Positions 32,217 through 46,331 of a stretch of DNA of 57,551 nucleotides are shown here, piece after piece. Every line of letters begins with the position of its first letter. Positions within the stretch are counted from its first letter, which is position 1. The DNA comes from Pseudogemmobacter bohemicus (GTDB taxonomy: Bacteria > Pseudomonadota > Alphaproteobacteria > Rhodobacterales > Rhodobacteraceae): the NCBI RefSeq assembly GCF_003290025.1, contig NZ_QNHG01000002.1:289787-347337 (forward strand), read 5' to 3'. The position numbers were made by a program, and so were the translations under genes. A model generated the notes under the pieces. The model worked only from the letters and a program-made list of their open reading frames with translations, had not been told where the DNA came from and searched no databases.

Positions 32217-32238
32217 GTAACTTACTGGAATACCAGCA

Positions 32239-32268
32239 CAAAATGGCCGTCCTTCGGGGCGGCCTTTT
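32239..32268 (+). terminator. Rho-independent terminator after tRNA-Thr
   Basis: GGCCGTCC (32245-32252), loop TTCG, GGGCGGCC (32257-32264) with a run of A before and TTTT after. It can stop transcripts in both directions: the tRNA from the left and terL from the right. Confidence 0.85.
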
Positions 32269-32367
32269 GCTTTGGCAAAGTCATGGAACCACGGCGGAAC
32301 CAATTCAGAAGCGAAGCCAGCTGGGGCGTGATCGCGAACATGTGAAGCCTTCGAGGTGTCTGCTGGG

Positions 32368-33984
32368 TCAGAGAAAGGCGAAGCCGCGCCCCTCATAGGG
32401 TGATGGCGTCACCTCATTGGCGATGATTCTGCCAACCGCCATTGCGGCCGCAACCGCTCCGTCGATCCTGCCGCGCGCCTTGGCCTTGGTGAACTTCTCA
32501 TTCTCGTGGGCATCCTTCTCGCCCACCACGTTCCCGAAGCACATGCGCAGAAGCGGGCTGCCGCCGTGGCGGAACTGCCCAGACAGGATCGCCCGCTTCA
32601 GCTCCTTCACCGGCGCTGACATCGAGGCCATGCCCTGGCCGAACTGGTTTACCGTAAAGCCCTCTTCCTGAAGGGCTGTGTTAACTGCCGTCGAGTTCCA
32701 GCGGTCAATGACGACCTCCTGGACCGCGAAGCGTTCTGCCAGATCGTTCAGGTAGGAGATGACCGCCGAGTGGTCGACCACGTTGCCCGGCGTCAGGATG
32801 AGGTAGCCCTCGTCTGCCCAGCGCAGATAGTCCGCCTGATCCTTCTCGCTCTTCATGGCGATGTTCGCCTCAGGCAGGAAAAACATCGGCAGGACATCAT
32901 AGCGGCGCGCCTCACCATCACCCTCGGCGAACACCGCAACGGCGGCGGTCAGATCCTCGACGCTGGAGAGGTCAACGCCAATCCAACACGGCCGCCCCTC
33001 GAGCGCTGTGACCGGCGTCATAGCCTCAGCCCTGTCATAAACCTCCAGAGCAAGCCACGGCTCGGCCGCCCCTTCCTGCCAAAGGTTCAGGTGAAACCGT
33101 TTAAAGTCGGCGATCTCAGACGGGAAATGTTCGATCCGGCGGGATTTGGTCTGAAGCTCCTCCATCGAGAGAAAGCCCGCCTCGATGGCCGGGTTTGCCA
33201 TGCGCCAGCCCTGCTCGTCTCGCCAGTCCAGTTTCGGGTCGGCAGCCAGGATGATAGGTGCGAAGCTCGGGTCTTCGACCTCTCCGGTCGCCACCTTGTG
33301 CGAATAATTCCACATATCCCAAGCGAGCCCGCCCTGACCTTCGCCAGCGGTGGTGATGATCACGCTGAGAGGGTTCGAGCGTTTCACCATCGAGTCGGTC
33401 ACGGTCTTGAATAGTTTGCGCCCCTCGGCGGCAGGCCATGCGTGGATCTCATCGGCAAGGAAGAATGAGACGTTCAGGCCATGCTTGGAATACGCCTCGG
33501 ACGAGATTGCCTTGAGCGTGCTTTTCGACTTCGGATGGATGAGCGTCTTGCGGCTCTCGAGCGGACGGACACGCTGGCTAAGGGCTTCCTCCTGAAGCAC
33601 GAACTGATGCGCTGAGTTGAAAGCGATTCCGGCGTTCTCGCGGTCGGCCGCCGCCATGACAACCTGGCCGCCTGCCTCGGTCTCCGGCCCCATGAAATGC
33701 GCAAGGCCCAGAGCCGCCGCCAAGGTGGTCTTGGCATTGCCCCGAGGAATCCAAATGCAGGCAATCTTCACGGCCCTGCCACCATCCTCTTTGGTGGGGC
33801 CATAGATGCGCCGGATAATGGCCTCCTGAAAGGGATGCAGGGCGAAGGCGCTGCCAGCGAAATCCCCCTCCCAGAGGGTGAGGTTGCGGACGAACCGGCA
33901 CATGCGATCCGCCCGCCCCGATGGGTCGGGATAGAGCGCAGGATCGGGAATGAATATCGGCGAGCGGTCAGCTTTTCTGGTCAT
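32368..33984 (-). CDS. Phage terminase large subunit
   Basis: DNA-packaging motor. The N-terminal ATPase has Walker A PRGNAKTT (residues 80-87) and Walker B SFFLADEIH (173-181). The C-terminal RNase H-like nuclease begins at CWIGVDLSSVEDLTA and continues to a late acidic site (RGRIDGAVAAAMA). It has 538 residues, typical of HK97-type TerL. The ATG at 33984 is chosen for its AGGTGA site, 14 bases after the terS stop; an ATG at 34023 would overlap terS by 25 bases. It is the last gene of the head operon. Confidence 0.95.
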   Translation of the reverse strand: MTRKADRSPIFIPDPALYPDPSGRADRMCRFVRNLTLWEGDFAGSAFALHPFQEAIIRRIYGPTKEDGGRAVKIACIWIPRGNAKTTLAAALGLAHFMGPETEAGGQVVMAAADRENAGIAFNSAHQFVLQEEALSQRVRPLESRKTLIHPKSKSTLKAISSEAYSKHGLNVSFFLADEIHAWPAAEGRKLFKTVTDSMVKRSNPLSVIITTAGEGQGGLAWDMWNYSHKVATGEVEDPSFAPIILAADPKLDWRDEQGWRMANPAIEAGFLSMEELQTKSRRIEHFPSEIADFKRFHLNLWQEGAAEPWLALEVYDRAEAMTPVTALEGRPCWIGVDLSSVEDLTAAVAVFAEGDGEARRYDVLPMFFLPEANIAMKSEKDQADYLRWADEGYLILTPGNVVDHSAVISYLNDLAERFAVQEVVIDRWNSTAVNTALQEEGFTVNQFGQGMASMSAPVKELKRAILSGQFRHGGSPLLRMCFGNVVGEKDAHENEKFTKAKARGRIDGAVAAAMAVGRIIANEVTPSPYEGRGFAFL

Positions 33985-33998
33985 GTCTTCACCTGCGA

Positions 33999-34406
33999 TC
34001 AGGCGAGAAGCCCATCGCCCCATTTGTCTTCCTTAGGAGATTCAGCAGGCTTCGAGCCTTTTCGATGCGGGGTCAGCCTCAGCTCGGCGGCCAGCAATCG
34101 GGCTTCACGCATGGCGGCGCTCTGCATTCTGAAGGCCGGATGAGGGGCCATTCCCTTTTCGGTCTGAACCATGCGGCCATCGCGTCCCATCATTTCCTCG
34201 GCTTCGCGCACCATGCCAGCGGCGACACAATAGCTTTCCAGCATGGCGGTGGTGTCGGGCGTCAGCAGATTCCGGCTAAACAATTCAGGTGCCGCCCGCT
34301 TCCATTCAGCCTTCGCCTGTGCTGTCAGCCATGCCGGTGCCGAAGGGCATTTTCCCCGGACTGAGCCCCCATCGATTGCGGTCAGTTTTGGCTTCCGGCC
34401 CTTCAT
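33999..34406 (-). CDS. Phage terminase small subunit (P27 family)
   Basis: Recognises the packaging site and loads TerL. The N-terminus MKGRKPKLTAIDGG and the helical middle (APAWLTAQAKAEWKRAAPEL) are typical of P27-family TerS. It has 135 residues from the ATG at 34406, whose ATGA overlap with the HNH stop makes it the natural start. Other in-frame ATG codons at 34421 and 34442 are less convincing. Confidence 0.88.
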   Translation of the reverse strand: MKGRKPKLTAIDGGSVRGKCPSAPAWLTAQAKAEWKRAAPELFSRNLLTPDTTAMLESYCVAAGMVREAEEMMGRDGRMVQTEKGMAPHPAFRMQSAAMREARLLAAELRLTPHRKGSKPAESPKEDKWGDGLLA

Positions 34407-34831
34407 CCCCAGAAATCCCATTTTCCAGATGTTTGCGCGCAAGATTGAGGCGCGGGTCCGGCAGCAGGAGGGTCAAATTTCCGATCCCCCCTGGCCGGTC
34501 GACCAAAGCCGCCGTCCTCAGTCGCGGTCTTGCGGTTGTGGCAGGAGGCGCAGAGCGGCTGCCAGTTGGACCGATCCCAGAACAGCTTCTTGTCACCCTT
34601 GTGCGGCACGATGTGGTCAACCACCGTGGCGACAGCGCCGCAGGAACAGGTCGGATGCGATCCGAGAAAGCCCAGCCGCGCCTTCTCCCACTTGCTGTCA
34701 TAGCCGCGCTTGCGGGCTGTGGGGCGGGCAGCATCCACCCGGGCCTGAGCCGCAGCAGCACAGACAGGACAGCGGCGGCCGGTGAAGGACGGGTGACCGG
34801 CGGCGCAATGGCGGGGTGCAGCCCAGGGCAT
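34403..34831 (-). CDS. Phage HNH endonuclease
   Basis: Metal-dependent nuclease that works with terminase during packaging in HK97-like phages. The HNH core is ATVVDHIVPHKGD, then WQPLCASCHNRKT, with paired cysteines (CSCG; CASC) that can bind zinc. It has 142 residues. It is coupled on both sides: its ATG shares one base with the connector stop and its stop overlaps the terS start. Confidence 0.92.
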   Translation of the reverse strand: MPWAAPRHCAAGHPSFTGRRCPVCAAAAQARVDAARPTARKRGYDSKWEKARLGFLGSHPTCSCGAVATVVDHIVPHKGDKKLFWDRSNWQPLCASCHNRKTATEDGGFGRPARGDRKFDPPAAGPAPQSCAQTSGKWDFWG

Positions 34832-35379
34832 CAGAACCCCCAGACGCGATAGTTGCGGATCAGGTCATCCTCGCCCAGCGGTAGTCCAGCCACGCTCTCG
34901 CCAACGACCACGCTTTCACGGTTGGCGAAGAGATGGCCCACGCGGAGGAGGATGGCGGCGCGGATCGGCTCGGGCGTTACATTATAACTCGCCGTGAAGA
35001 TTATGCTGGCGCTGTCCGCCTCAGGCCAGTCACCAACCGGATTGATCCGGGCGACATCGCCAATCCCCCTGACACGATACATGGCGGGGGCCAGCGCCTG
35101 CTGCTCGCCATCCTTGTCCAGATAGGTGATCGAGGTCACCTCTTGGCAAGGCGGCAGGGGAAGGGTGATAGTCCCACGCAATTCATCCAGATCGAGCCGC
35201 CACACCTGAGGCATGAGGCAGCGCCCCAGATATCCATCTGGCCCATCGAGGCGCCCCACGGCGGCGGCGATCATGGCGGCAATAGAGGTATCATCATCGT
35301 CGAAGTCGACGCGCAGATGAAGCTTAGCCTCGGCCAGTAGGACCGGCATCTCGACTGAAGGGGTGATCAGGTGCAGCAT
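34831..35379 (-). CDS. Head-tail connector protein (gp6-like)
   Basis: Forms the ring below the portal where a tail attaches. The 182-residue sequence starts MLHLITPSVEMPVLLAEAKLHLRVD and has the helical and beta pattern of the HK97 gp6-like connector family (DTSIAAMIAAAVGRLDG; RAAILLRVGHLFANRE). It lies 47 bases after the capsid gene. In a satellite that borrows tails, this is the part expected to match the helper tail. Confidence 0.82.
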   Translation of the reverse strand: MLHLITPSVEMPVLLAEAKLHLRVDFDDDDTSIAAMIAAAVGRLDGPDGYLGRCLMPQVWRLDLDELRGTITLPLPPCQEVTSITYLDKDGEQQALAPAMYRVRGIGDVARINPVGDWPEADSASIIFTASYNVTPEPIRAAILLRVGHLFANRESVVVGESVAGLPLGEDDLIRNYRVWGF

Positions 35380-35426
35380 GGGGCATCCTCGTAAAGGGGA
35401 AGGGCCGGTCTCCCGGCCCCTCGGTA

Positions 35427-36557
35427 TCAGGTGATGCTGGTGGCAACCTTCAGGAGCCTGATGGCCTCGGGCTTCACCACATCGCCACCGACACGGCGGC
35501 GGGCGTGGAACCGGGTCTGGCCGGTGGTTGCCAGCGAATAGGGATCGCGCATCACTGAAAGGCTGAGGCGATCCACGATGCGATAGCCCTGCTTCAGATC
35601 ACCGAACATGATCGGCAGAGCATTCGCAGCGATGCTGGGCATATCGGGCAGCTCGACCACGGGGCGACCAAGGATCGTCGCCGGGTTCCCCTCGCTCAGG
35701 GCATCTCGCCACAGGTAATCACCGCCCGAATTCTTCAGCTTGCGAACCTCGCCGATGGTGGTGCGGTTCATGCCCCAGACCGCATTGGCGGCGTAGAAGC
35801 TGGGAAGCCCGTGGAAGAGGTTGATCAGAGCATCGGCATTGATCGCCGCCGCTGCACCACCTGCGATCTGGGGAATGTCGGTATCGGTCAGGATCCCGCC
35901 GGGTTGGCCGGTGCCGGTGCCGGTCACGAAAGCCAATCCCTCGAGCCGTCCGAACTCTTCGGCGAAATCAGCCGCCAGTTCGCCCTGGAGGTTATACTGG
36001 TTGTCCTCCAGCAGGGCGTTCGACACGTCGACGTAGCAGGCTGCCTCGTGCGGGGTGAGCGTGATCTCCCCATAGGTCGGCTGGGTCGCGGGACGGGCGC
36101 CGGTCTCGGTGACCCAGGCAGCGGTCAGGGTGCCGGTGCGCTTCGGCATCCGGGCTTCGCTGGCACCAATGGACATGACCCGGGCATGTTGGCGGATCGG
36201 CGAGAACTGAACGAGGTTTTTCACCACCTCTTTCACGAACTCGGTCGGGGCCAGATTGCCACCGCCGTTTGCCGCAAGGGTCAGGTTCTTCAGCTCGGCC
36301 CCAGCAGCGGCCTCGCCCTGGCGAACATAGGTGCCGAAGGCCTTGGCCTCGATGTTTTCCGGCTCGGCCGCTTTGGTCTGGATCAGGCCGGGGCGCGCCA
36401 GCTTCTGCTCGATGCGGCCCGCCGCCTTGGCGACATTGCCAACGCTCTCCTCCAGGGCCGTCAGCCGGGTGTCGATGCCAGCAACGGTTTCTTCCAGAAC
36501 GCCCATGCGGTCATCGTCATTTTCCGCCTCGGGGGCGGCAGTCTGTTGGTCAGCCAT
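35427..36557 (-). CDS. Major capsid protein made from an internal start (candidate second product)
   Basis: Inside the protease-capsid frame, codon 171 is ATG (36557) starting MADQQTAAPEAEND. It is preceded at eight bases by AAAAGGAGC, one of the best ribosome sites in the element. Translation from here would give a 376-residue capsid protein, the normal HK97 length, from the same message as the fusion. The frame has no stop between the parts, so both products are possible. Confidence 0.65.
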   Translation of the reverse strand: MADQQTAAPEAENDDDRMGVLEETVAGIDTRLTALEESVGNVAKAAGRIEQKLARPGLIQTKAAEPENIEAKAFGTYVRQGEAAAGAELKNLTLAANGGGNLAPTEFVKEVVKNLVQFSPIRQHARVMSIGASEARMPKRTGTLTAAWVTETGARPATQPTYGEITLTPHEAACYVDVSNALLEDNQYNLQGELAADFAEEFGRLEGLAFVTGTGTGQPGGILTDTDIPQIAGGAAAAINADALINLFHGLPSFYAANAVWGMNRTTIGEVRKLKNSGGDYLWRDALSEGNPATILGRPVVELPDMPSIAANALPIMFGDLKQGYRIVDRLSLSVMRDPYSLATTGQTRFHARRRVGGDVVKPEAIRLLKVATSIT

Positions 36558-37067
36558 GATGCTGCTCCTTTTGAAAGCCACCTTCGTGGCGGGGGTCTCG
36601 GCGGATGCCGATTTGACGCTGGTGATCCGGGCAGCAGATGCAGCGGGGATCGAGACCAGTGAGATTTCGATGAGTTCGATTTCCTTCAGGAGCCGCCCGC
36701 CGCCTGGCAGACGCTCGAAGTCGATGACGCGGTATCCGATGGACAGGCCATTGAGCGCCCCTGCTTTCAGAAGGGCGTGAGCCTCTCTGCCCTTCACCGT
36801 GTCGAGGACCAGCTGGCCGGTCACCTGAAGACCGGTTTCATCTTCCTTCAGATCGAGCCAGCGCCCGAGGGGCTGATGCGGATCATGCTGCCAGAGCATC
36901 AACGGCGCGGTGCCCGCTTCGCGATGAGCCTTCAAGCTGGCGGCATAGGCACCGGGGGCAATGATGTCGCCATGGCTGTCGGGCTTGCCGCCGAAGACAG
37001 AGGCATAGCCGGACAGAAGCCCGGCGCTGATGGTCTGAAACTTGGTCTCAATCTCAAGCCGCTCCAT
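35427..37067 (-). CDS. HK97-type prohead protease fused to major capsid protein
   Basis: One open frame of 546 residues. Residues 1-155 are the serine protease that matures proheads: LLSGYASVFG, H32 in DSHGDIIAPGAY, and the S-containing LIEISLVSIPA near 136. Residues from about 171 are the major capsid protein: a delta/scaffold coiled region to about 250, then the HK97 fold (GGNLAPTEFVKEVV; ARMPKRTGTLTAAWVTETG; FVTGTGTGQPGGIL). These are separate genes in most HK97-like phages. The ATG at 37067 follows GAGG and overlaps the portal stop by 14 bases. Confidence 0.92.
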   Translation of the reverse strand: MERLEIETKFQTISAGLLSGYASVFGGKPDSHGDIIAPGAYAASLKAHREAGTAPLMLWQHDPHQPLGRWLDLKEDETGLQVTGQLVLDTVKGREAHALLKAGALNGLSIGYRVIDFERLPGGGRLLKEIELIEISLVSIPAASAARITSVKSASAETPATKVAFKRSSIMADQQTAAPEAENDDDRMGVLEETVAGIDTRLTALEESVGNVAKAAGRIEQKLARPGLIQTKAAEPENIEAKAFGTYVRQGEAAAGAELKNLTLAANGGGNLAPTEFVKEVVKNLVQFSPIRQHARVMSIGASEARMPKRTGTLTAAWVTETGARPATQPTYGEITLTPHEAACYVDVSNALLEDNQYNLQGELAADFAEEFGRLEGLAFVTGTGTGQPGGILTDTDIPQIAGGAAAAINADALINLFHGLPSFYAANAVWGMNRTTIGEVRKLKNSGGDYLWRDALSEGNPATILGRPVVELPDMPSIAANALPIMFGDLKQGYRIVDRLSLSVMRDPYSLATTGQTRFHARRRVGGDVVKPEAIRLLKVATSIT

Positions 37068-38265
37068 TGGCGGTCCTCGCATCTTCAGTGTTCAGGGGAA
37101 GGCGGAACTGATCACCGCCGGGATACGGGGTGCGGTTCTCGGAGGCCCTGATCTCGTTCGGGGAAAGCAGGCCGTTCGTGACAGCCTGGGCATAGGCGGC
37201 GAAGCGGGCAGCCAGATCGGCACGGGCCAGATCATCCGTCAGGAACTCAGCGAAATAGACCTTCCGTTCCTCGGGCGTCAGCAAGGCGCGGCGGATGCCG
37301 GCCTCCCAGATCTTCAGCCACGGAAGCAGGGTCAGGGACAGGAACTGCTGACCCATCGCCTCGGCATTGTTATGGGTAGCGCGTTCGAGTTCCTGAAGGA
37401 GGTGCAGCGGGATCCGGAACACACGGGCGATCTCGGCGACCTGATGGCGGCGAAGCTCGAGAAACTGCATGTCAACGGCTGTGAACTGAAGCGGCGCGAA
37501 ATCCATGCCGTCTTCCAGGATCAGCGTTCGCCCGGCGTTCTCGCCACCGGCATGACCGGCGTTGAAGCTGTCGCGAAGCCGCTGCATCGCATCAGGCCCA
37601 AGGGTCTTGGAATATTTGAAAACGCCCGATGGGCGCGCGCCCTGCGAGAACAGCTTGCCCGCGTGTTGTTCCATAGCCATCGAAAGGCCGATGGCGTCCC
37701 GGGCCTGCATCACCGGCGAGAGGCCCACATTCGGCTCTGTGCCCAGGGTCTTCAGATGCAGGATGTCAGCGAAGGAATAGTCTCTAACACCGCTCTCCGA
37801 GCTGATTCTATAAGAAGGCTCCAGGGTCAGGCTGTCGGTCATAACCGTCACGGCGCGGGTGGGGATATGGATCAGTTCGGTGATCTGGCCGCCGCTGCGA
37901 TTGATGAAGGCGAAGGCGTTTCCGTGCAGGCACAGGGCGGTCTGCATCGCCAGCCGAAAGTCGGCGGCATCGGTCCATTCATTGGCCATGCCGTTCAGGA
38001 GTTCCGCCAGCGGATGGTCGGAAGCCCGATCCTTCCCGCCATCATCGGTGCGGCGGTAAAGATGCAGGGGGAGCTGCGAAACGGATTCTGCCAGCACCTT
38101 CACGGAGGCATAGACCGTGGGGCAGCGGAGCGAGGATTCAGGGGTAACAGTCACACCGGCAGCGGATGGGGCACCACCGAAGAGCGCGATCAGTTCAGGC
38201 GAAGGCTGGGCAATGCCCGCCGATTTCCTTTGGGTGCCGGAGAAATGGAAAAAACGCCTTAGCAT
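37054..38265 (-). CDS. Phage portal protein (HK97 family)
   Basis: Dodecameric channel for DNA entry. The family phrases VYASVKVLAESVSQLPLHLYR, GNAFAFINR, IPTRAVTV and DILHLKTLG, and the C-terminal VFRIPLHLLQELERATHNNAEA, are clear. It has 403 residues from the ATG at 38265 with a G-rich site upstream; an ATG at 38280 is in frame but has none. It is the first structural gene of the minus-strand head operon. Confidence 0.94.
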   Translation of the reverse strand: MLRRFFHFSGTQRKSAGIAQPSPELIALFGGAPSAAGVTVTPESSLRCPTVYASVKVLAESVSQLPLHLYRRTDDGGKDRASDHPLAELLNGMANEWTDAADFRLAMQTALCLHGNAFAFINRSGGQITELIHIPTRAVTVMTDSLTLEPSYRISSESGVRDYSFADILHLKTLGTEPNVGLSPVMQARDAIGLSMAMEQHAGKLFSQGARPSGVFKYSKTLGPDAMQRLRDSFNAGHAGGENAGRTLILEDGMDFAPLQFTAVDMQFLELRRHQVAEIARVFRIPLHLLQELERATHNNAEAMGQQFLSLTLLPWLKIWEAGIRRALLTPEERKVYFAEFLTDDLARADLAARFAAYAQAVTNGLLSPNEIRASENRTPYPGGDQFRLPLNTEDARTANGAA

Positions 38266-38348
38266 CACGCCCCCACGCATGACTGTTACAACATAACAAT
38301 TTCATGCTTAGCCGGGGTCGGAAATAATATAACACAATGGCGCGCGGA

Positions 38349-38765
38349 TCAGCTTTGCGCGGGCTTGTCCGGGCTTGCGGGAAGCGGCACCCAGCAACGG
38401 GTCAAGCCATTCCAGAGCATCCCGGTTGACCCATGCCTGTCCCAATCTGACAGCTCGGCCCATTGGGCCGGGGTCACCAGGCGGCCGCACCAGGTGCGCC
38501 AGAGGCCACCGAATGACTGTCCATAAGGGGAACAGTCAGCCGGGATACGGGGCTTCCGGTCTTCCCATTTAACCCTTTTAACCTCTTTAACCCCTTGGGG
38601 CGGACTGATGGGAGCGGGTGGAGGAGTATCAGGGATAACCGATTTAACCCTTTTAACCGATTTAACCTCTGCCGCCTCGAGCGGTGGTGGGGTTGTTGGG
38701 GTTAATGGGGTTAAATCGGGTGCCGCCTGTCCGAACTCTTGGGCGATGGTGAACCACTTGCTCAT
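38349..38765 (-). CDS. Hypothetical protein with VK repeats
   Basis: No known family recognised. The 138-residue sequence has a Pro/Thr-rich N-terminal third and repeated EVKSVKRVK / EVKRVKW stretches that directly reflect 9-base GGTTAAA-type DNA repeats, then a Trp-rich C-terminal part (GLWRTWCGRLVTPAQWAELSDWDRHG) resembling a small DNA- or protein-binding module. Its ATG overlaps the primase stop by four bases, so it is expressed with it. The coding sequence may partly serve to carry the DNA repeats. Confidence 0.6.
   Translation of the reverse strand: MSKWFTIAQEFGQAAPDLTPLTPTTPPPLEAAEVKSVKRVKSVIPDTPPPAPISPPQGVKEVKRVKWEDRKPRIPADCSPYGQSFGGLWRTWCGRLVTPAQWAELSDWDRHGSTGMLWNGLTRCWVPLPASPDKPAQS
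38568..38715. repeat. Array of TTTAACC / GGTTAAA heptamers (site A)
   Basis: TTTAACC on the + strand starts at 38568, 38578, 38586, 38643, 38652 and 38661; the complement GGTTAA(A) lies at 38699 and 38709. Spacing within each group is 8-10 bases. The array lies just downstream of the primase-helicase coding region. The same heptamer recurs at 44.5 kb. Confidence 0.75.
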
Positions 38766-41320
38766 GGCTTCTCATGCAAGGCTGGGTTCACCACGAAGCG
38801 CCTGGACGGGCGTCCGCCTTTGGGCGCGCCGGGGGTGGGGACAAGACGGATCAGGTCACCCACAGCCAAAGCATCGAGGGCGGGATCGAGCTCGGCCTTC
38901 GTCGCGATCCCGGAGCGGTCGAGGCGAAGCACATCGGTGGTGCTGAACGCCTCCCACCCCTGTTCGATGATCAGGGCCGCCAACTTACGCCCAGCGCGAT
39001 CTTCCTTGGCAATCGATCCATCGGCATAGGATCGGATTGCCATCGGCAGGAGGTAGGCCTCGATGAACCCAGCGGCCCGGCCAAAATGGTTAGGGCTGAT
39101 CTCGGTCACCTCGGGCGCGCCAGCCAGCCAGTCCAGAACAGCGAAGATGAGCGACAACCGCACCGCCATGCCCGGCAGCTTGCCGATGAAGGACAGCAAC
39201 AGGCCTTCGTGTTGGGCCTCCCAGTCCCGACACACCAACCGGAAGTCATTCAGGTGATCACGGGTCGGCTCCATGAAGGGGATGAACCACGGGCGCAGCT
39301 CGCCATCCTCATCGGCCACCATCGACAGCCCCACGAGGCGGCGAAGGGCGGATTCAATGAAGGCTGCATCCGGAACATGCTCGGGCCGCTTGATCGGCGC
39401 CGGGTTGGGCCAGATGGGGAGGAACCGGGCCAACAGGCCATCGTCATCGGTCTTCATCAGCAAGGTCTTCAGCTTGTCGGGCTGAATACCACCAGTGACG
39501 CCAATCGTCAGGCGATTGATCCAGACCGGATCACGCCCCATGCGCTCGACCGAGTATCCCTTTCCGCCATAGGCTTCGAGCCAGAACGGGCGGTCGCTAC
39601 CACCGGAATATCTGGACATGTTGCCCAGCCAGCCAGACAATTCATCCCGGAAAACCAGGGTGCCCCGGGGCTGTCCGGCGACGATCACTGCCAGCTTTTC
39701 CGTGGTCGCATCGGCAAGGGCATAGCGCGGCATTATCGGCTCGGGGCCGGGATCGGCTTCAGCGGGCTTCTGCGGGATGTCGTCACCGTCACGGATGGCG
39801 GCCTTCACCGCCTCTTTCCACGCGGACTCAGCCAGCTTTGCCACCTCGGCCGCCGCTCGCCATGCGGTCAGCCTGCCCTCGACCTCCTGGCGGCCCTCAC
39901 GCTCGACAACTTTCAGGGCAGCCATGACGGCATCAAGCCCCGGGCTTTTCCCGGCGCTCGGATTGCCGATGGCCATAGACCAGAGGATCGGCGGTTCAGA
40001 CCAGCCCTCCCAGGGCGCGACCCAGCGGGTGTTGCCGAGGAGCGCGCCGGTGACGCTCAGAAGCGCCGCAACGACATAGTCGGCGGGCGCTCCCTTGGAT
40101 TCCGCAGCCGTGCGTATCCAGCTGCACCACGCGGGTGGAAAGACCTGCTCAAGCGGCAGGGTGGGAGCCTCGGGCAAGATGGTGCGGAGATACCTCGGAT
40201 CAGGCGCCCCCCACACGGGCTCTGCATCCCTCCTGCCGGGGTTGTCCCCAGGCGCGGCCCTATCATCCCGGCGGTCAGCAGGCCGGGTATTGGTCAGGCG
40301 TGCTTCCTCGGCATATTCCCGAACAGCGGTAACGAAATCACCGCTCTTCTCATGGTGAACATAGAGGTCGAATGCATCTCCATAGCGATGGCCATCCGGA
40401 GTGGCGCGACCGACACCGGCCGCTGCATCGCTGGAGGAAAGGCTGACCCAGTATTCGCCAAAGTCTTTGGTGGCATAGCTGCCCGAGGTCTGCATGGGGC
40501 TGCGCCAATCACGGGAGCGCCCGGCCTGCTGATATCCATAGCGGGTGAACAGGTCCGCAATGGTGTGGGCCTGATTGAAATGATCGACCGGCTTGGTATC
40601 CGATCCTGCGGGCGCATTGCTCGGGCGGCGTTCACGCTCTTTGCGGGCAAACTCTTGGGCCGCGCGGATCTGGGCGCGATTTTCTTCCCGACGAATGACC
40701 ACAGGATTATCAGGATCCATGACAGCAGCCCGTCCGGCGTGCAGGCGGAACTCGTAGAACTCGCCCTTGTTGGGCAGATAGATCAACTGGCCAGGTCGGG
40801 CCAGCGCGCGATCCGGGATCAGCGTGCCTGCGCTCGCCGCTTCCAGAAGATCATAGAAAGCCATCATCGTGTCGCTGTAATCGGCGCCGGGGATGAAACC
40901 TTTGAGCGGGATCAGGGCGCGCCACTTCTTGTTGTCCTCAGTGGACGAGCGCGACGAATAGATCATGCACCGGGCGTCCGGCAGCACGGCATGGACGGTG
41001 TCCAAGATGTCGCTGAGCGCCAGATTGTTCTGGTCCACATCAATGGTTGCCCAGAAGAATTGCCCGTTCAAGCGCTGAGCCTCATGCGCGCGGGCATCGG
41101 AGCCATGGTAGGTCGACGGAATGAACCACCGGGCCTTGTCCTTCGGCACCGAGGGCGGGTTTTTCACCATGGCAAGGATCTGCTGCCCGTCCACGGTATT
41201 GTAGGGCTGACCGGCCAGCTTCGCGGGATTGGGACGGCCATCGCTCAGGGTCGGCACATGGGTATCGCTCTGGCCGAAGCCGCTGGCGAAGCTGAGAGCA
41301 GGTTTGGTCTGGGCATTCAT
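38762..41320 (-). CDS. Primase-polymerase / DUF3987 helicase-like replication protein
   Basis: Probable replication initiator of the island. The N-terminal part looks like an archaeo-eukaryotic primase-polymerase: D94 and D96 in WATIDVDQ form the metal site and SRSSTEDNKKWRALIPL (about 123-139) is the nucleotide-binding segment. The C-terminal half is a DUF3987-type ATPase with a P-loop GNPSAGKS (452-459) and LVFRDELSGWLG as Walker B. It has 852 residues. It lies between the AlpA-like gene and the head genes. Confidence 0.88.
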   Translation of the reverse strand: MNAQTKPALSFASGFGQSDTHVPTLSDGRPNPAKLAGQPYNTVDGQQILAMVKNPPSVPKDKARWFIPSTYHGSDARAHEAQRLNGQFFWATIDVDQNNLALSDILDTVHAVLPDARCMIYSSRSSTEDNKKWRALIPLKGFIPGADYSDTMMAFYDLLEAASAGTLIPDRALARPGQLIYLPNKGEFYEFRLHAGRAAVMDPDNPVVIRREENRAQIRAAQEFARKERERRPSNAPAGSDTKPVDHFNQAHTIADLFTRYGYQQAGRSRDWRSPMQTSGSYATKDFGEYWVSLSSSDAAAGVGRATPDGHRYGDAFDLYVHHEKSGDFVTAVREYAEEARLTNTRPADRRDDRAAPGDNPGRRDAEPVWGAPDPRYLRTILPEAPTLPLEQVFPPAWCSWIRTAAESKGAPADYVVAALLSVTGALLGNTRWVAPWEGWSEPPILWSMAIGNPSAGKSPGLDAVMAALKVVEREGRQEVEGRLTAWRAAAEVAKLAESAWKEAVKAAIRDGDDIPQKPAEADPGPEPIMPRYALADATTEKLAVIVAGQPRGTLVFRDELSGWLGNMSRYSGGSDRPFWLEAYGGKGYSVERMGRDPVWINRLTIGVTGGIQPDKLKTLLMKTDDDGLLARFLPIWPNPAPIKRPEHVPDAAFIESALRRLVGLSMVADEDGELRPWFIPFMEPTRDHLNDFRLVCRDWEAQHEGLLLSFIGKLPGMAVRLSLIFAVLDWLAGAPEVTEISPNHFGRAAGFIEAYLLPMAIRSYADGSIAKEDRAGRKLAALIIEQGWEAFSTTDVLRLDRSGIATKAELDPALDALAVGDLIRLVPTPGAPKGGRPSRRFVVNPALHEKP

Positions 41321-41323
41321 GGC

Positions 41324-41602
41324 TCACTCCTCCGAGGTCGAGTCGCGGAGCGGGCCAAGCTTGCCCTGCGCCCAATCATCAACCGCCACCCGGGGATAGA
41401 GCGGGGTGCGGTTCACCTTCTGAAAGGGCGGGCCGCCGCCACGGGTCGCCAAGGTGGCCAGCGTGGAGGGTGCCATGATGATCCCATGTGCCAGCTCCAG
41501 ATACTGGCTCACCTCGTCACGGCGAAGGCGGGGCTTGCGCAAGGCAGGCGGCAGGCTGATCGGGGTCGTTCCCGCAAGCGGGTTATTTTGCTCGATAGTC
41601 AT
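41324..41602 (-). CDS. Small helix-turn-helix protein (AlpA/excisionase-like)
   Basis: 92 residues with a probable MerR-type winged helix, LRRDEVSQYLELAHGI... to ...RVAVDDWAQGKLG, as found in AlpA and Xis proteins that activate satellite excision or transcription. The match is by pattern only. It lies three bases upstream of the primase gene in the same direction. Confidence 0.6.
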   Translation of the reverse strand: MTIEQNNPLAGTTPISLPPALRKPRLRRDEVSQYLELAHGIIMAPSTLATLATRGGGPPFQKVNRTPLYPRVAVDDWAQGKLGPLRDSTSEE

Positions 41603-41742
41603 TTGTTTCTCCGGCAGGAGGACGCTCGGGGAGGGCGCCTATTGGTGGTGCATGCCTAGAATCATGTGGTGGAGTAGTGAAAATCCAAAGAGGTTGATTT
41701 CAGTTATCCACAATTGCGCGACATAGGCAGAAACCCGGGCTC

Positions 41743-42327
41743 CTATTCGGCGTCCGGGGTATTCTCTTCTTTGAGTTCCGACACGATGCGATACAGCGGA
41801 CCATCGACGGCCTTCTTGACCGCATCGGCAAGCAGCCGGTGGTCAATGATAAGGCAATGGAAGCTCCCGTCTTCGCTCAGCCGATCCGTGATGTAATTCA
41901 GATCACCGCACCGAAAGACGCTACCATAAAAATTATCCGAAGGCGGCAGAGGGGCAACCAGATAGCGGCTGTTTTCTGCGCCGTGAACTCGGCTGAACAG
42001 GATCCGCTGCTTGATGCTTTCGGGCATTTCATCGCCCTCAAACTCAAATGCACCCTCCAGCTCTCCGAACTCCCGATGCATCGGAAGAAGCGAAAGTCCG
42101 GCGATGCTTTTGGCCATGGTGAGGCTGAAACCACTGGCAGAGAGCATCTTGATGATCATCAGCTCGACGATCCCGTTGAGATCGAAAACCGTCCAGCCAT
42201 CGCCCTGCCGTTCAGCAAGGATGCCACGGCGGCGCCAGTCACGTTGAACCGACACCGAGACGCCGGTGACTTCGGCAGCTTCCTTGGGCGAGAACTCCCG
42301 CCCGATAGTTGTGACAGTGTAACCCAT
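41743..42327 (-). CDS. MerR-like helix-turn-helix regulator
   Basis: 194 residues. The N-terminus is a MerR-type HTH (FSPKEAAEVTGVSVSVQRDWRRRGIL then GWTVFDLNGIVELMIIKML). The C-terminal domain is unrecognised. It lies between the small-gene ladder and the AlpA-like gene, where an island regulator is expected. Upstream are repeated TCACACGGTTTT sites that are probably its operator. Confidence 0.75.
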   Translation of the reverse strand: MGYTVTTIGREFSPKEAAEVTGVSVSVQRDWRRRGILAERQGDGWTVFDLNGIVELMIIKMLSASGFSLTMAKSIAGLSLLPMHREFGELEGAFEFEGDEMPESIKQRILFSRVHGAENSRYLVAPLPPSDNFYGSVFRCGDLNYITDRLSEDGSFHCLIIDHRLLADAVKKAVDGPLYRIVSELKEENTPDAE

Positions 42328-42351
42328 GTGCGCCTCCTGATCGTGAGATCA

Positions 42352-42390
42352 TCACACGGTTTTAAAAGCGTGTCAACGTCACACGGTTTT
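42352..42390. promoter_or_regulatory. Candidate operator of the MerR-like gene
   Basis: TCACACGGTTTT occurs twice in direct orientation (42352-42363 and 42379-42390). Between them AAAAGCGTGTCA makes the first copy half of a 24-base imperfect palindrome (42352-42375). It lies 25-63 bases upstream of the MerR-like start, a good place for autoregulation. Confidence 0.55.
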
Positions 42391-42408
42391 CATCACTCTG
42401 GGCGCCGG

Positions 42409-42639
42409 TCACCCCTCCCAGTCGGCATCATCGATTGGTGCCAACAGCGGCATCAGCATTGCCAGAACAGCTTGTAGGGGATGGGACTTGTAGAAGTGAT
42501 CCCGCCCAAACACGATTTCCGGGTTCCAGTCGTGATCCGACGCCAGGACCAGCGACTGGACGATCCCGATGGCCGCCATGAGATTGTCGGATGGCGTGTG
42601 CATCCGGACCTCAGTGAATTTGAAGGTGCTGTCGCTCAT
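42409..42639 (-). CDS. Small hypothetical protein, island ladder gene 4
   Basis: 76 residues, acidic, no family recognised (MSDSTFKFTEVRMHTPSDN at the start, a hydrophobic helix LQAVLAMLMPLLAP near the end). Its ATG overlaps the stop of the preceding small gene by four bases. It is the last member of the chain that begins at 43293. Confidence 0.6.
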   Translation of the reverse strand: MSDSTFKFTEVRMHTPSDNLMAAIGIVQSLVLASDHDWNPEIVFGRDHFYKSHPLQAVLAMLMPLLAPIDDADWEG

Positions 42640-42839
42640 GCCGCGGCCTCCGGGAGGTTGATGCTGTCGAGGTTGTGGTTCAGCTTCTCGGCCAGTTCAC
42701 CGGCCACTTGGATGAGCGCGGTGACAGCCGTGCCTTGGCCCCGTCCCTCGTTGTCGAGGATGGCGATGGCCTCGATCACACCGCACAGGGTGCAGGACAT
42801 GTCCTGTTGGTTCTGGATGTGCTGGCGAAGGGTGGTCAT
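42636..42839 (-). CDS. Small hypothetical protein, island ladder gene 3
   Basis: 67 residues, MTTLRQHIQNQQDMSCTLCG at the start, with a CxxC pair that may bind metal. No family recognised. Starts at 42839 with an ATGA overlap on the preceding gene; a longer frame to 42977 is only a shadow of that gene. Confidence 0.55.
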   Translation of the reverse strand: MTTLRQHIQNQQDMSCTLCGVIEAIAILDNEGRGQGTAVTALIQVAGELAEKLNHNLDSINLPEAAA

Positions 42840-43102
42840 GCCCTGTCCTCCTTCTTCCAGATGCCCAGACCGCGCGCCCTCTCGTGGGCTTCGTTGCCAT
42901 CGATGACGACTGCCTGCATTTCCTCTGCGACCTCCAGAGTGGTTGCGACACTCCCCAGCCTCACCGGATCGATGCATCCGCCTCCCCCATCGGCTTCGAG
43001 GGCGATCCTTGCCGTTCGGATCAGAGCGGCAACGACATAGGACAGATCACCGGCCCACTGCTCGGCCGGGAGACCTTTGAACATTTCGCGCCCAACGATC
43101 AT
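42836..43102 (-). CDS. Small hypothetical protein, island ladder gene 2
   Basis: 88 residues, predicted helical (DLSYVVAALIRTARIALEAD; LGSVATTLEVAEEMQAVVIDG). No family recognised. Coupled by four-base ATGA overlaps on both sides. Confidence 0.55.
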   Translation of the reverse strand: MIVGREMFKGLPAEQWAGDLSYVVAALIRTARIALEADGGGGCIDPVRLGSVATTLEVAEEMQAVVIDGNEAHERARGLGIWKKEDRA

Positions 43103-43293
43103 GCTGCGCCTCCGATCAGCTTCTCGATCTGGCGGCGGGCAGCACGGACATAAGACCGGAACTCGCGCTCGGTCTGGCTATAGCCGCCCGGCCGTTCGCT
43201 GGCGTCCAGGGCGAGGGAAAGGCAGTCATGGGCCTCAGCGAGGCGGGCAGAAGGCAAGCCGGTATCGGCTGCCGAAACGCAGGTGCGCGGCAT
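43099..43293 (-). CDS. Small hypothetical protein, island ladder gene 1
   Basis: 64 residues, helical, with a basic C-terminus (EFRSYVRAARRQIEKLIGG). No family recognised. First gene of the leftward chain. Its start lies 25 bases from the first copy of the repeated operator at 43318, facing the XRE-like gene. Confidence 0.55.
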   Translation of the reverse strand: MPRTCVSAADTGLPSARLAEAHDCLSLALDASERPGGYSQTEREFRSYVRAARRQIEKLIGGAA

Positions 43294-43317
43294 TGTCAGG
43301 ACTCCCGATAGGGGTTA

Positions 43318-43372
43318 TCAATACTAAAAGTATCATATTGAAGGTCGCGCCATGTCAATACTAAAAGTATCA
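43318..43372. promoter_or_regulatory. Pair of identical 18-base operators at a divergent switch
   Basis: TCAATACTAAAAGTATCA occurs at 43318-43335 and again at 43355-43372, 37 bases start to start. Each contains the palindrome ATACT-AAA-AGTAT. Copy 2 directly follows the ATG of the XRE-like gene and supplies its codons 2-7. Copy 1 lies between the divergent genes and includes a TATCAT that could be a -10 box. Most likely the XRE-like protein binds here and represses itself and the leftward operon. Confidence 0.75.
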
Positions 43373-43606
43373 ATAGAGCAGGTTAAGGCCGCGCGTGCGC
43401 TGCTCCGCTGGTCGCAGTCGGATATGGCCGAAGCCTCCGGGGTGTCCCTCCCGACCATCAAGAGGCTTGAGGCTGCGACTGGCGCCATAGGCGGGCGAGA
43501 GGAGACAGGAACCATGATCCAGGCTGCCCTCGAGGCTGCTGGTGTCATCTTCCTGGCCGATGGCGAAGAAGGCCCCGGTGTCCGGCTTCGCAAGGAGCAC
43601 TTCTGA
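43352..43606 (+). CDS. XRE-family helix-turn-helix regulator
   Basis: 84 residues; helix-turn-helix in VKAARALLRWSQSDMAEASGVSLPTIKRLEAATG, typical of small Cro/CI-type proteins. The gene begins inside an operator copy. Its stop shares a base with the start of the next gene (TGATG), so the two are coupled. It probably controls the island's lysogenic state or the membrane partner. Confidence 0.85.
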   Translation: MSILKVSIEQVKAARALLRWSQSDMAEASGVSLPTIKRLEAATGAIGGREETGTMIQAALEAAGVIFLADGEEGPGVRLRKEHF

Positions 43607-44472
43607 TGTTCTGGCGGCTCAAGATCCTCGTAGTTCGCCTAGCAATCGGGCTTGCGCTGAAACGCCCGACTCCGGACACCATACCGTTGTCAGGCGAGGA
43701 CCAGCTGCGCGCAAGAAACTACTGCCGGGCTTATATCGGCACAGTTCACACTGATCTTTATATTGCGGTCACTGGGCGCTCGCGTAAGGGCGTGACCGGG
43801 CTGCTTTGGAATGGCACGGCCCAAGGGGGCAATGTCTCATCACTACAGAACAAATTCCTTCCGTCGTATCCCGTTGTAATTCAAACATATTACGGCGAGG
43901 CTGAGATCCACTACAGCCCAGGGGTATTCCTGCTTAGCCATGTCGTCCCGCTGTCTTGGCTAAACCTCTATCGAGGGAGGTTCCTTCAGTGGATGTTTAA
44001 CCGAAAGCCCCTTGTGCGCCGTGAGCGCTATGATGTCCTGCGGTGGGCGTATGACCGAGGCCTTGCGCAAGGCACGACAGACATTAGCCCAGAGACCTTC
44101 CTGAAGGAAACGAGCAGCCTGCGCTGGATGCGGCACCCAAAGGGCGGCGAAACACTGCGCTACTACAGCCTCGTCTTCGAGTCCCTGCTTGGATCGGGAG
44201 ACCTTCAACGACCAGCAGGGCAGGGCTACAGGTTGGCACCTCAAGCGCTCGCGACCCTCTCCCGACTGGAGGAAGACAACCGGCGGCACAAGGACAACCT
44301 CCGCCAGCAATCCATCATGGCTGTGCTGACCTTTGCTCTCATACTGGTGGGGCTTCCTGCGGCGCTGGATGCGGGGCGAAAGCTGATCCGGCCTGAAGTG
44401 GAACAGCGCGACGAGCAGGCCGTCCAAGGCAGCACCACCGCTCCCACCCAGGAGGCACCGGCGCCTGACTGA
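43606..44472 (+). CDS. Hypothetical membrane-anchored protein coupled to the XRE regulator
   Basis: 288 residues, no family recognised. A hydrophobic N-terminal stretch (LKILVVRLAIGLAL) is followed by a large soluble region and a clear transmembrane helix near residues 240-260 (IMAVLTFALILVGLPAAL), with a short Gln/Thr/Pro-rich tail. AAGGAG lies nine bases before the ATG. It is the only longer gene on this strand in the island's left half. A superinfection exclusion or other lysogeny-expressed role is a guess. Confidence 0.65.
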   Translation: MFWRLKILVVRLAIGLALKRPTPDTIPLSGEDQLRARNYCRAYIGTVHTDLYIAVTGRSRKGVTGLLWNGTAQGGNVSSLQNKFLPSYPVVIQTYYGEAEIHYSPGVFLLSHVVPLSWLNLYRGRFLQWMFNRKPLVRRERYDVLRWAYDRGLAQGTTDISPETFLKETSSLRWMRHPKGGETLRYYSLVFESLLGSGDLQRPAGQGYRLAPQALATLSRLEEDNRRHKDNLRQQSIMAVLTFALILVGLPAALDAGRKLIRPEVEQRDEQAVQGSTTAPTQEAPAPD

Positions 44473-44475
44473 GCC

Positions 44476-44574
44476 GGTTAAAGGGGTTAAAAGGGTTAAA
44501 TCGGTTACCCCTGATGCTCGTTCAGCCCCGGCTCCCTCCCTCTCTGGTGGGTAAAATAGGTTAAAAGGGTTAAA
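44476..44574. repeat. Array of GGTTAAA heptamers (site B)
   Basis: GGTTAAA starts at 44476, 44485, 44494, 44559 and 44568, with a partial GGTTA at 44503: strict 9-base steps, about one helical turn minus 1.5 bases. It lies in the non-coding 44473-44711 gap. The same unit and spacing occur at 38.57-38.72 kb. Confidence 0.75.
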
Positions 44575-44647
44575 TGGGATTTCCCGGTAACCCTTCTAAC
44601 ACCCCCCTCCGTCATCCCGGCGAGCGATGGCCAAGGCTCGTTTCGCG

Positions 44648-44675
44648 TTGAATAAAGGCCCTCGCCCCATATTAT
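44648..44675 (+). promoter_or_regulatory. Candidate promoter for the 44712 gene
   Basis: TTGAAT (44648-44653) and TATTAT (44670-44675) with a 16-base spacer, 36 bases before the ATG. Confidence 0.4.
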
Positions 44676-44711
44676 CGAGCCAGTAAAGACCACGCCCGCC
44701 CTGGAGCCACC

Positions 44712-44990
44712 ATGACCGACGACACGCCCAACATTGTGCATTCTGGAAAGAGCCAGTCGGTGGTGGTCGACGGCCTTCGGTTCGACATCCAGATCTACAG
44801 GGGCGAGGACGAGAAGGACTGGATCCTTGAGGTGGTCGATACCGAGGGCACCAGCCACGTCTGGGAGGATCGGTTCGCCAGCGACCGGGACGCGCGCAAC
44901 GAGGCGATCCAAGACCTAGAGAAGCACGGTGCCAGGGCGTTCATGCGTGGCGATGAGGCGGGGAACGTGGTGCCGTTCCGGCGGGGATAA
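44712..44990 (+). CDS. Hypothetical acidic protein
   Basis: 92 residues, beta-rich then helical (VVVDGLRFDIQIYRGEDEKDWILEVVDTEG; ARNEAIQDLEKHG), ending in basic PFRRG. No family recognised. It has a GGAG site and its own candidate promoter, so it is probably a real cargo gene of the island. Confidence 0.6.
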   Translation: MTDDTPNIVHSGKSQSVVVDGLRFDIQIYRGEDEKDWILEVVDTEGTSHVWEDRFASDRDARNEAIQDLEKHGARAFMRGDEAGNVVPFRRG

Positions 44991-45169
44991 GGCCGCGTAA
45001 GGCATGATTCTCACAGGCGGGGGCACCACGAGACCGCACCTCTTGAGACGTGTTGCCGTTGGATGTAACAAGAGTGACACTAGATCTTGTCAGATCTCAT
45101 GCCGCTTCGCATGGTGTTGGTGCTGACGAGTCAAATGGATCACACTTTATGTATTCGCCGTGCGCTGTG

Positions 45170-45197
45170 TTGACACTTGTCAACGCTTTATTAGATA
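45170..45197 (+). promoter_or_regulatory. Promoter with the -35 box inside a palindrome
   Basis: TTGACACTTGTCAA (45170-45183) is an inverted repeat whose left arm is a consensus -35 (TTGACA). A TAGATA -10 lies at 45192-45197 after a 16-base spacer. The following gene starts at 45212. A repressor on the palindrome would block the promoter. The rest of 44991-45211 holds nothing recognisable. Confidence 0.6.
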
Positions 45198-45211
45198 AGA
45201 AGGCATAGACG

Positions 45212-45481
45212 TTGACGAGACCAAGGCACCCGAACAAGCACATTGAAGCGGCGGTATCCTACGCGGAAGAACGCGGATGGATCTACAAGGCACCCGGCAG
45301 CAGTGCGCATGTGTGGGGGCGGCTTCTCTGTGCCTTCTCGGATCGTGAGGGCTGTCGCGTGTCCGTGAACTCTACGCCTCGGGTGCCAGAACACCACGCG
45401 GCAAAAATAACCAAGGCCGTGTCGGCCTGTGAACATGAACACTGCCCAGATAAGAAAGGGGGCCCAGAAGATGATCTATGA
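45212..45481 (+). CDS. Small basic protein, candidate toxin of a two-gene module (HicA-like fold suspected)
   Basis: 89 residues from a TTG start with AAGAAGG ten bases upstream. The sequence RHPNKHIEAAVSYAEERGWIYKAPGSSAHVWGRLLC resembles small HicA-like proteins: an alpha-beta start and a G-S-x-H segment where HicA toxins have the catalytic His. It has two further cysteine-rich stretches. The toxin reading is inference from shape, size and the DNA-binding partner. It overlaps the next gene by 11 bases. Confidence 0.6.
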   Translation: MTRPRHPNKHIEAAVSYAEERGWIYKAPGSSAHVWGRLLCAFSDREGCRVSVNSTPRVPEHHAAKITKAVSACEHEHCPDKKGGPEDDL

Positions 45482-45989
45482 CTTTGCGTTTGTAGTTGAC
45501 GCTGACCCTCATGACGAGAGCTTCGAGGATCGCTTCATTGAGGCTGGTTGCGATGATGCAACCTTCTTTTTGCTGCGTGGAACTGCGACGATTAGCTTCG
45601 ACCGCGAGGCTTCCTCCTACAAGGAGGCCGTATTTTCTGCATACCAGCAGATTATTGCAACCGGGTCGCAAATCTTGCGCTTTGAACCAGATTTCCTCGT
45701 GAGTGCTACGGATATCGCTGAACGCAGTGGCCTCACGAAGGCAGCAGTCAGCCTTTACATAAAAGGGGAGCGCAAAGAGGGATTCCCTGCCCCTAATGCG
45801 CGGTTTCATTCATCTACTCCCCTTTGGGACTGGGTCAAGGTTTCCAAATGGCTTGTGGAACACAAGCATTTGCCAATGGAAGCGTATCGCGAGGCTTTGA
45901 TTTCCCGTATCATCAATGCTGGCGCACAGATCAATCAAGTGGATCCGGATTGCCAGTTTGATATTGCCGGAGCACTCGAGGCCGCTTGA
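45471..45989 (+). CDS. DNA-binding partner protein of the two-gene module
   Basis: 172 residues from the ATG at 45471 (MIYDFAFVVDADPHDESFED), which follows AAAGGGGG. The N-terminal half is an alpha-beta domain. The second half has a helix-turn-helix (VSATDIAERSGLTKAAVSLYIKGER) and a C-terminal helical part. In many such pairs the second gene is an antitoxin that also represses the operon, here possibly at the palindrome at 45170. A GTG at 45429 would give 14 more residues. Confidence 0.65.
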   Translation: MIYDFAFVVDADPHDESFEDRFIEAGCDDATFFLLRGTATISFDREASSYKEAVFSAYQQIIATGSQILRFEPDFLVSATDIAERSGLTKAAVSLYIKGERKEGFPAPNARFHSSTPLWDWVKVSKWLVEHKHLPMEAYREALISRIINAGAQINQVDPDCQFDIAGALEAA

Positions 45990-46013
45990 CCCACTACATT
46001 GTTCAAGCCGTCC

Positions 46014-46043
46014 AAAGCCCCAGATATTAATCTGGGGCTTTTT
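46014..46043. terminator. Strong bidirectional terminator
   Basis: A perfect 12-bp stem, AAAGCCCCAGAT (46014-46025) and ATCTGGGGCTTT (46030-46041), loop ATTA, T-run to 46043 on this strand and AAA on the other side. It lies between the two-gene module and the convergent integrase remnant. Confidence 0.9.
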
Positions 46044-46108
46044 GCGTCCGGAGCACTACGTCCAACATCCCTGACCAGAAATGAACGACCCGATATGTTT
46101 TCGGCGCA

Positions 46109-46330
46109 TCAAGCGGCCCAGTCCGGAAAGATCTCGCCCTCGACATCCTCACCCGCCAGCGCCCGCGCAATGACATCCGAGACGCGGTTCGCGGCCGAGA
46201 CAAGCGCCACATCGGCCATATGGGCATAGCGGCCCGTGACGCTGCCTGCGGTATGGCCCAGCAGCCCGGCGATGGTGAACTCGGAATAGCCCAGGGTGGT
46301 GGCCACCGAGGCGAAGGTGTGGCGCAGGGT
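46109..46330 (-). pseudogene. Tyrosine recombinase (integrase), C-terminal fragment
   Basis: Only about the last 74 codons remain. They contain the catalytic box II (LRHTFAS), the LLGHT histidine segment and the nucleophile in GRYAHM, then a normal C-terminus. Immediately upstream (46334-46336) the frame hits TAG and the sequence becomes unrelated. The N-terminal two thirds are gone, so the protein cannot be made. It ends the phage-derived island. Confidence 0.85.
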
Positions 46331-46331
46331 A

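Follow-up and report, generated by a model that had tools for sequence, protein, structure and literature searches.

A Probable Capsid-forming Phage Satellite at a tRNA-Thr Gene of Pseudogemmobacter bohemicus

Gene Content of the Element at tRNA-Thr(CGT)

The window, the whole stretch of 57,551 nucleotides that was analysed, is taken from the 5.6-Mb genome of Pseudogemmobacter bohemicus (G000:C2:289787-347337), and the element described here occupies ~14 kb of it, from a tRNA-Thr(CGT) gene to about position 46350. The original prediction, made from the letters alone, took this unit for a candidate satellite resembling the capsid-forming phage-inducible chromosomal islands (cf-PICIs), and the genes it named are present on the minus strand close to where it placed them, with E-values showing matches far above chance. 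Read on the minus strand toward the tRNA, the order is an AlpA-like regulator, a primase-helicase, an open reading frame (ORF) with no family match, portal, protease-capsid, adaptor, HNH, terS and terL, with terL lying 0.15 kb from the tRNA gene. The features from the tRNA to the AlpA-like gene are as follows.

32141-32216, plus strand: tRNA-Thr(CGT), located with ARAGORN; integration target on the attL side, with the 3' end facing the element
32368-34023, minus strand: terL, large terminase subunit (TerL_nuclease 3e-42, phrog_9 3e-133)
33999-34442, minus strand: terS, Terminase_4 family (Terminase_4 2e-20)
34403-34831, minus strand: HNH endonuclease of the packaging module (HNH 3e-8)
34831-35379, minus strand: head-tail adaptor, or connector (phrog_442 2e-27, Phage_connect_1 3e-5)
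35427-37082, minus strand: prohead protease (S78) and HK97-fold major capsid in one frame (Peptidase_S78 2e-29, Phage_capsid 7e-83)
37054-38280, minus strand: portal (Phage_portal 3e-101)
38349-38765, minus strand: ORF with no family match; homologues follow the primase in G318, G274, G277 and L130
38762-41320, minus strand: primase-helicase with a primase-like N-terminal part and a DUF3987 helicase C-terminal part (DUF3987 1e-56)
41324-41602, minus strand: AlpA-like small helix-turn-helix (HTH) regulator (sub-threshold HTH_17 match and conserved place)

An AlpA-type regulator together with a primase or replication module is a defining feature of cf-PICIs, and the corresponding genes here are the DUF3987 primase-helicase and the AlpA-like HTH (sub-threshold). 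The AlpA-like call made in the original prediction rests on an HTH_17 match that is sub-threshold (0.008) and on proteins 53-68% identical at the equivalent place in five named relatives. In the available part of PMC10690885, cf-PICIs are defined as encoding capsid, head protease, portal and head-tail connectors together with TerS, TerL and HNH and as taking only tails from the helper; every one of these genes is present in the window.

No match to tail, baseplate, fibre, holin or lysin families was found with Pfam and PHROGs in the scanned ORFs from 32.3 to 46.3 kb, a set from which overlapping alternative frames were left out and in which the ORFs at 42636-42977 and 45212-45481 were covered by Pfam only and those at 42409-42639, 42836-43102 and 43099-43293 by PHROGs only. 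The lone line labelled baseplate has an E-value of 0.07 and falls inside the primase. The tail, baseplate and lysis modules of a complete tailed prophage are absent among the window ORFs scanned, and the same ORFs gave no match to parA or repA.

Complete Relatives Bounded by tRNA Repeats

A complete counterpart is found in Luteovulum azotoformans ka25 (L130), where the same gene order extends from a 434-amino acid integrase through terL to a tRNA-Arg(CCG) gene. Portal, capsid and TerL of this island are 77-83% identical to those of the window (TerL 83% in amino acids), with adaptor, HNH and TerS at 46-63%. The island measures 14,390 bp, and at its two ends 33 nt of the tRNA-Arg 3' end are repeated exactly, compared with a longest chance match of 12 nt in 200 shuffles. 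A further locus (L076) is identical in the compared genes and seems to come from the same strain. A TerL search over 385 genomes of the class gave two more close TerL matches, G667 (L208) and G498. The L208 island also lies at a tRNA-Arg(CCG), with a 48-nt repeat 14,802 bp apart, and has the order full-length integrase, xre, alpA, primase N-terminal part, portal, protease-capsid, adaptor, HNH, terS, terL and tRNA-Arg; its TerL is 80%, its portal 73% and its capsid 55% identical to the window proteins. G498 carries alpA and the head genes with a TerL of 69% identity, and its contig ends ~0.4 kb past terL. The module with an intact integrase and att sites, which the original prediction had proposed to look for in relatives, exists in both L130 and L208. 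Repeats of the tRNA were found in five of eight named loci compared (L130, L134, L136, L138 and L141) and not in L129, L131 or L132, of which the available stretches start inside the element or its integrase.

Two wider scans were made, of viral contigs (42 loci returned, four with capsids 77-78% identical) and of a genome collection (13 named loci confirmed from 200 candidate stretches). Primase homology was discarded as a guide to relatives, since most of the loci it pointed to lack these head genes; the primase N-terminal and helicase C-terminal parts also occur separately. Five tail queries (three tape measures, a fibre and a distal tail protein) gave no match by tblastn, a weak test, in ten loci of the TerL clade described below (L129-L133, L139, L074, L116, L208 and L209). 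Ten ORFs of the L130 island compared with PHROGs matched integrase, primase/helicase or nothing, with no tail match.

TerL and Capsid Lineages

In the TerL tree the window falls in a 12-row clade with support of 100/100, comprising the window, L073-L075, L129-L133, L139, L116 and L117, of which L073-L075 and L130 are nearly identical. The hosts are Luteovulum, Neomegalonema, Xanthobacter, Rhodoblastus, Azospirillum and Niveispirillum, spanning several alphaproteobacterial families. The capsid tree, in which the bootstrap had not settled, unites only a six-row core of this clade (100/100), and for this reason the capsids appear to have been exchanged or to have changed faster than TerL. The long branches L172, L190, L083, L196 and L189 are unreliable, and nothing is concluded from them. 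In a set of 50,697 phage records, TerL matched 2,288 and the capsid 1,144, always below 60% identity.

The close apposition of terL and tRNA is shared by four of the six named TerL-clade loci (L129-L132, at 0.11-0.52 kb, and not L133 or L139). Past the tRNA, the one gene scanned per locus in L129, L131 and L132 is of cellular appearance, coding for S58 peptidase, methyltransferase and DNA polymerase I. These placements bear on a further possibility, that the lineage consists mainly of episomal satellite-plasmids and the chromosomal copies are secondary integrations. Circular plasmids of 16-17.5 kb with related head modules do occur in Roseomonas, Paracoccus and Methylorubrum, and satellite-plasmids termed cf-PISP are described from Vibrio in the accessible part of PMC13230959. 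The TerL-clade members with enough context are, however, integrated, mostly beside a tRNA, and the plasmid TerL proteins are 37-45% identical and lie outside the 12-row clade, so that a plasmid origin is very unlikely.

Gene transfer agent (GTA) clusters have tails and are not known to carry an integrase or primase. Many relatives have separate protease and capsid genes, with capsids ~39% identical to that of the window, in what are presumably GTA clusters, and one of these lies at C1:575-578 kb of the source genome, as a locus separate from the element. A domesticated head cluster of the GTA or GTA-like kind would agree with this distant capsid homology, and the part of PMC12846349 that is available says that one cf-PICI capsid resembles the GTA capsid of R. 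capsulatus. Such an origin is given a minimal probability, as the window unit has a primase, an integrase remnant and no tail match, while its relatives lie at tRNAs with att repeats and the element is patchy between species.

The Truncated Right End

The part of the element beyond the AlpA-like gene contains further regulators, small ORFs and the end of an integrase.

41743-42327, minus strand: MerR-type HTH regulator (profile match)
42409-42639, 42636-42977, 42836-43102 and 43099-43293, minus strand: four small ORFs with no assignment from the scans
43352-43606, plus strand: Xre-type regulator, divergent, a repressor candidate (HTH_3 5e-6)
43606-44472, plus strand: 288-amino acid protein (phrog_7611 2e-8)
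44712-44990, plus strand: 92-amino acid protein, 88% identical in the G001 island at the same tRNA
45429-45989, plus strand: excisionase/transcriptional regulator-like protein (phrog_2620 1e-22)
46109-46354, minus strand: C-terminal remnant of a tyrosine integrase, by homology to the G006 integrase

Homologues of the Xre regulator (38-63%) are likewise divergent in several related islands. The integrase end noted in the original prediction is indeed tyrosine integrase sequence, but only the last ~70 codons are left, from 46109 to ~46350, with two stops at the 5' edge of the homology. The 425-amino acid integrase at the same site in G006 matches the window by residues 345-421 only. With this full same-site integrase as query the missing part was not found in the source genome, and the search also gave two weak, unrelated integrases (26-27%). 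Exact seeds, a 3-mismatch pattern and an ungapped scan did not recover the tRNA 3' end a second time in the window, nor did a genome-wide 22-nt search allowing up to 2 mismatches. L130, L208 and four sister-clade loci have the integrase and att sites expected of a chromosomal island, of which the window keeps an integrase remnant, with no attR found. The window copy appears to lack roughly the N-terminal 80% of its integrase, and with no attR found either it is probably stranded, not able to excise and spread alone.

The extent of the inserted DNA is defined by G012, a genome of the genus in which the tRNA-Thr has no island. There the gene that sits at 54782-55876 in the window follows ~400 nt after the tRNA, and window positions 32316-54769 have no DNA-level match in the compared stretch. 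Given this empty site the insertion here amounts to ~22.4 kb, of which the left ~14 kb is the satellite. The ~100 nt directly after the tRNA (32217-32315) are alike in G012 and in the occupied G001, G006 and window.

Positions 46801-50888 hold the debris of another mobile element, with a helicase-like protein (phrog_29234), a piece of dCTP deaminase and a 332-amino acid protein that has an HELGH motif, a phrog_24479 match and a sub-threshold match to a metalloprotease toxin domain (E 0.007). Within this stretch, positions 50355-50855 encode an Lrp/AsnC ligand-binding domain with an odd N terminus, perhaps a host regulator gene cut by the insertion.

Islands at the Same tRNA-Thr in the Genus

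The genus set comprised 13 genomes, the source genome included. G007 has terL, terS and HNH that are 98-99% identical to the window (TerL 98%), followed by a broken adaptor adjoining a truncated host gene. The ratio of nonsynonymous to synonymous substitution (dN/dS) between window and G007 is 0.032 for terL, 0.016 for terS and 0.073 for HNH (137 codons), with dS at 0.36 in terL and at 0.62 in 174 codons of the adjacent host gene. The low dN/dS shows that the packaging genes are under strong purifying selection and that their function has been kept, and the lower dS of terL makes its exchange after the species split possible. G005 retains the last ~97 codons of terL, 95-96% identical, at a contig end.

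Other islands occupy the same site. G001 has a different one, with alpA, the primase N-terminal part, xre and the 92-amino acid protein in common with the window. G006 has 45-nt repeats of the tRNA 3' end 9.8 kb apart, with an alpA and an integrase related to those of the window; no head genes were found in it with the window queries or among the four ORFs scanned. In G008:C4 (L172, 4580-15476) 48-nt tRNA-Thr repeats lie 10.9 kb apart and, as judged from the part of the ORFs scanned, enclose the genes integrase, helicase, terL, HNH, capsid, protease and portal, arranged differently from those of the window. Its TerL is 25-27% identical, and it is a second, unrelated capsid-encoding island at this tRNA-Thr. 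A single tRNA is thereby a meeting site of capsid-making and other satellite-like islands.

The shortened integrase and missing attR, the debris of another mobile element at 46.8-50.9 kb and the deletion that G007 shows at this same site would all be expected of an ordinary tailed prophage in decay, its tail and lysis genes deleted. This explanation is nonetheless judged unlikely. Relatives that are complete between att sites are equally tail-less and follow the same gene order, and in several hosts terL abuts the tRNA, so that tails would not fit. The ORFs for head and packaging proteins are open, three of them at dN/dS 0.02-0.07 against G007, and the TerL and capsid matches in phage records all stay below 60% identity.

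The Protease-Capsid Frame

The fusion of protease and capsid, singled out as notable in the original prediction, is less unusual than it seemed, as PHROGs has a family annotated as "major head and protease protein" and the fused frame keeps a site like a ribosome-binding site with an ATG. An AGGAG followed by an in-frame ATG lies at the capsid start (36555-36569), and a nested capsid gene probably begins there.

35427-36557, minus strand: putative nested capsid-only product, from the ATG at 36557 (residue 176) after AGGAG

A Shine-Dalgarno-like site with a start is located at the protease/capsid junction in nine of 12 usable rows, L074 being left aside (compared by eye and without a chance control), three of the nine being near-identical and one having TTG; the compared stretch of L073 has a stop. 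The site was not seen in L131, L133 or L116 among the 12 rows. Free capsid may be made from this nested start beside the fusion.

Proposed Identity and Working of the Satellite

The element is very probably an alphaproteobacterial satellite of the cf-PICI type at the 3' end of tRNA-Thr(CGT), one that would make its own heads and use helper tails. The original prediction is borne out to this extent: no tail or lysis match came from the small frames scanned, the close relatives searched show no recognised tail module behind the head genes, and some relatives are complete, with att sites at both ends. The window copy itself is probably a stranded member of a live family, with its head and packaging genes all open.

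In the working envisaged, the divergent Xre repressor would silence the operon of AlpA, primase and head genes until a helper phage is induced or infects, when the AlpA-like and excisionase-like regulators together with an integrase would excise the island and the primase-helicase would replicate it. Portal, protease and capsid would assemble into the satellite's own HK97-fold procapsid, with the capsid supplied perhaps both as the fusion and from the nested start. TerS, TerL and HNH, whose genes are seen, would package the island DNA into this head, and the adaptor would prepare the head for a tail made by the helper. The presence of HNH next to TerS, TerL and portal points to cutting of the cos type, as in HK97-like phages. 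A candidate helper prophage lies at G000:C4:86000-118000 (L195, L196), where tail-fibre, distal-tail and tape-measure genes stand beside a second terminase with a TerL 31% identical. An earlier null result for a tape measure in the source genome with PF10145 was discarded, as PHROGs found one at C4.

Several points weigh against this identity. The window copy, with its broken integrase and no attR found, does not appear to be a complete island, and a simple crossover at the tRNA end would not account for the ~100 nt that occupied and empty sites share after the tRNA. The AlpA domain assignment is sub-threshold. In L133 terL is followed by T7-like phage pieces rather than host genes, and in L139 (Azospirillum) by a 779-amino acid ORF and two smaller ones with no clear function, one of the three weakly matching (1e-5) a terminase-labelled family. 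Tape-measure proteins occur in more distant relatives, and the genome-collection scan may be incomplete. The assignment to the cf-PICI type is drawn from sequence.

Satellites that make heads and borrow tails can cross the host barriers set by the helper tail and so matter for gene flow. A coherent tRNA-integrated family is now placed in several alphaproteobacterial families, and an intact island is named in a sequenced strain, L. azotoformans ka25, that is open to direct test.

A Possible Wider Radiation

Homologues of portal, capsid, HNH, TerS and TerL (TerL 37-42% identical) occur in twelve stretches from genomes of the same family (L061-L072), several of which also have protease and capsid in one frame. 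They differ from the window in having extra connectors and, in eight of the 12 stretches, a tape-measure gene after terL (assigned by clustering, one confirmed by PHROGs). Their description as full prophages was dropped, since beyond the tape measure little else of a tail was recognised in the ten proteins scanned. In Mesorhizobium sp. LHD-90 (L138, 4038-19561) a tape measure comes right after terL, and tRNA-Arg repeats lie 17,551 bp apart. Few other recognised tail genes were seen among the ORFs scanned in L061-L072 and L138, and such elements may be satellites that determine how long a borrowed tail becomes. Three circular plasmids, Roseomonas mucosa pTT14-8 (L187, 16.9 kb), Paracoccus marcusii unnamed5 (L188, 17.5 kb) and Methylorubrum sp. 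B1-46 pB146-3 (L189, 16.1 kb), have portal, TerL and other head and packaging genes and no gene annotated as tail, the annotation being incomplete and omitting any gene that spans the start of the record; they are possible satellite-plasmids.

A bolder and rather doubtful proposal is that these belong to a large, old alphaproteobacterial radiation of head-making satellites apart from the tailed phages, with at least three build types, rivals at one tRNA-Thr and a nested capsid start. The build types would be head-only tRNA islands as in the window, tape-measure islands (L138, L061-L072) and circular satellite-plasmids (Paracoccus, Roseomonas, Methylorubrum). Were this true, the tape-measure islands might dictate the length of the borrowed tail, unrelated head-making satellites would compete for one tRNA-Thr site in the genus, and the nested start would let translation set the ratio of protease to capsid.

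Comparison with Known Systems

In canonical cf-PICIs the terminase comes first, whereas the window has the order portal, protease-capsid, adaptor, HNH, terS and terL with the terminase last, by the tRNA. The window differs further in its protease and capsid sharing one frame, in the loss of most of the integrase and of attR, and in a lineage of TerL and capsid seen here in no group but the alphaproteobacteria. It resembles the cf-PICIs in its capsid, protease, portal, connector, TerS, TerL, HNH, primase and AlpA-type genes, in having no recognised tail or lysis gene, in an integrase, reduced here to a remnant, and in the tRNA att repeats of the complete relatives of 14.4 and 14.8 kb. The founding cf-PICI paper is Alqurainy et al. 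2023, as cited in the available parts of PMC10690885 and PMC11389934. Since cf-PICIs are called widely distributed in the former (PMC10690885), the window element is filed with this already described satellite type; no paper on alphaproteobacterial cf-PICIs was among the literature matches listed.

Two other systems are comparable, as far as the accessible portions of the sources describe them. The cf-PISP satellite-plasmids of Vibrio (PMC13230959) share a head and packaging set without tails and a capsid of Pfam PF05065, whereas the window element sits in the chromosome beside a tRNA and is only a distant relative of the alphaproteobacterial plasmids. The Streptomyces satellites MulchRoom and MiniFlayer (PMC10690885) likewise have their own capsid and packaging set but are described with virulent helpers, direct terminal repeats and no obvious replicase, unlike the window element with its primase-helicase and its place at a tRNA.

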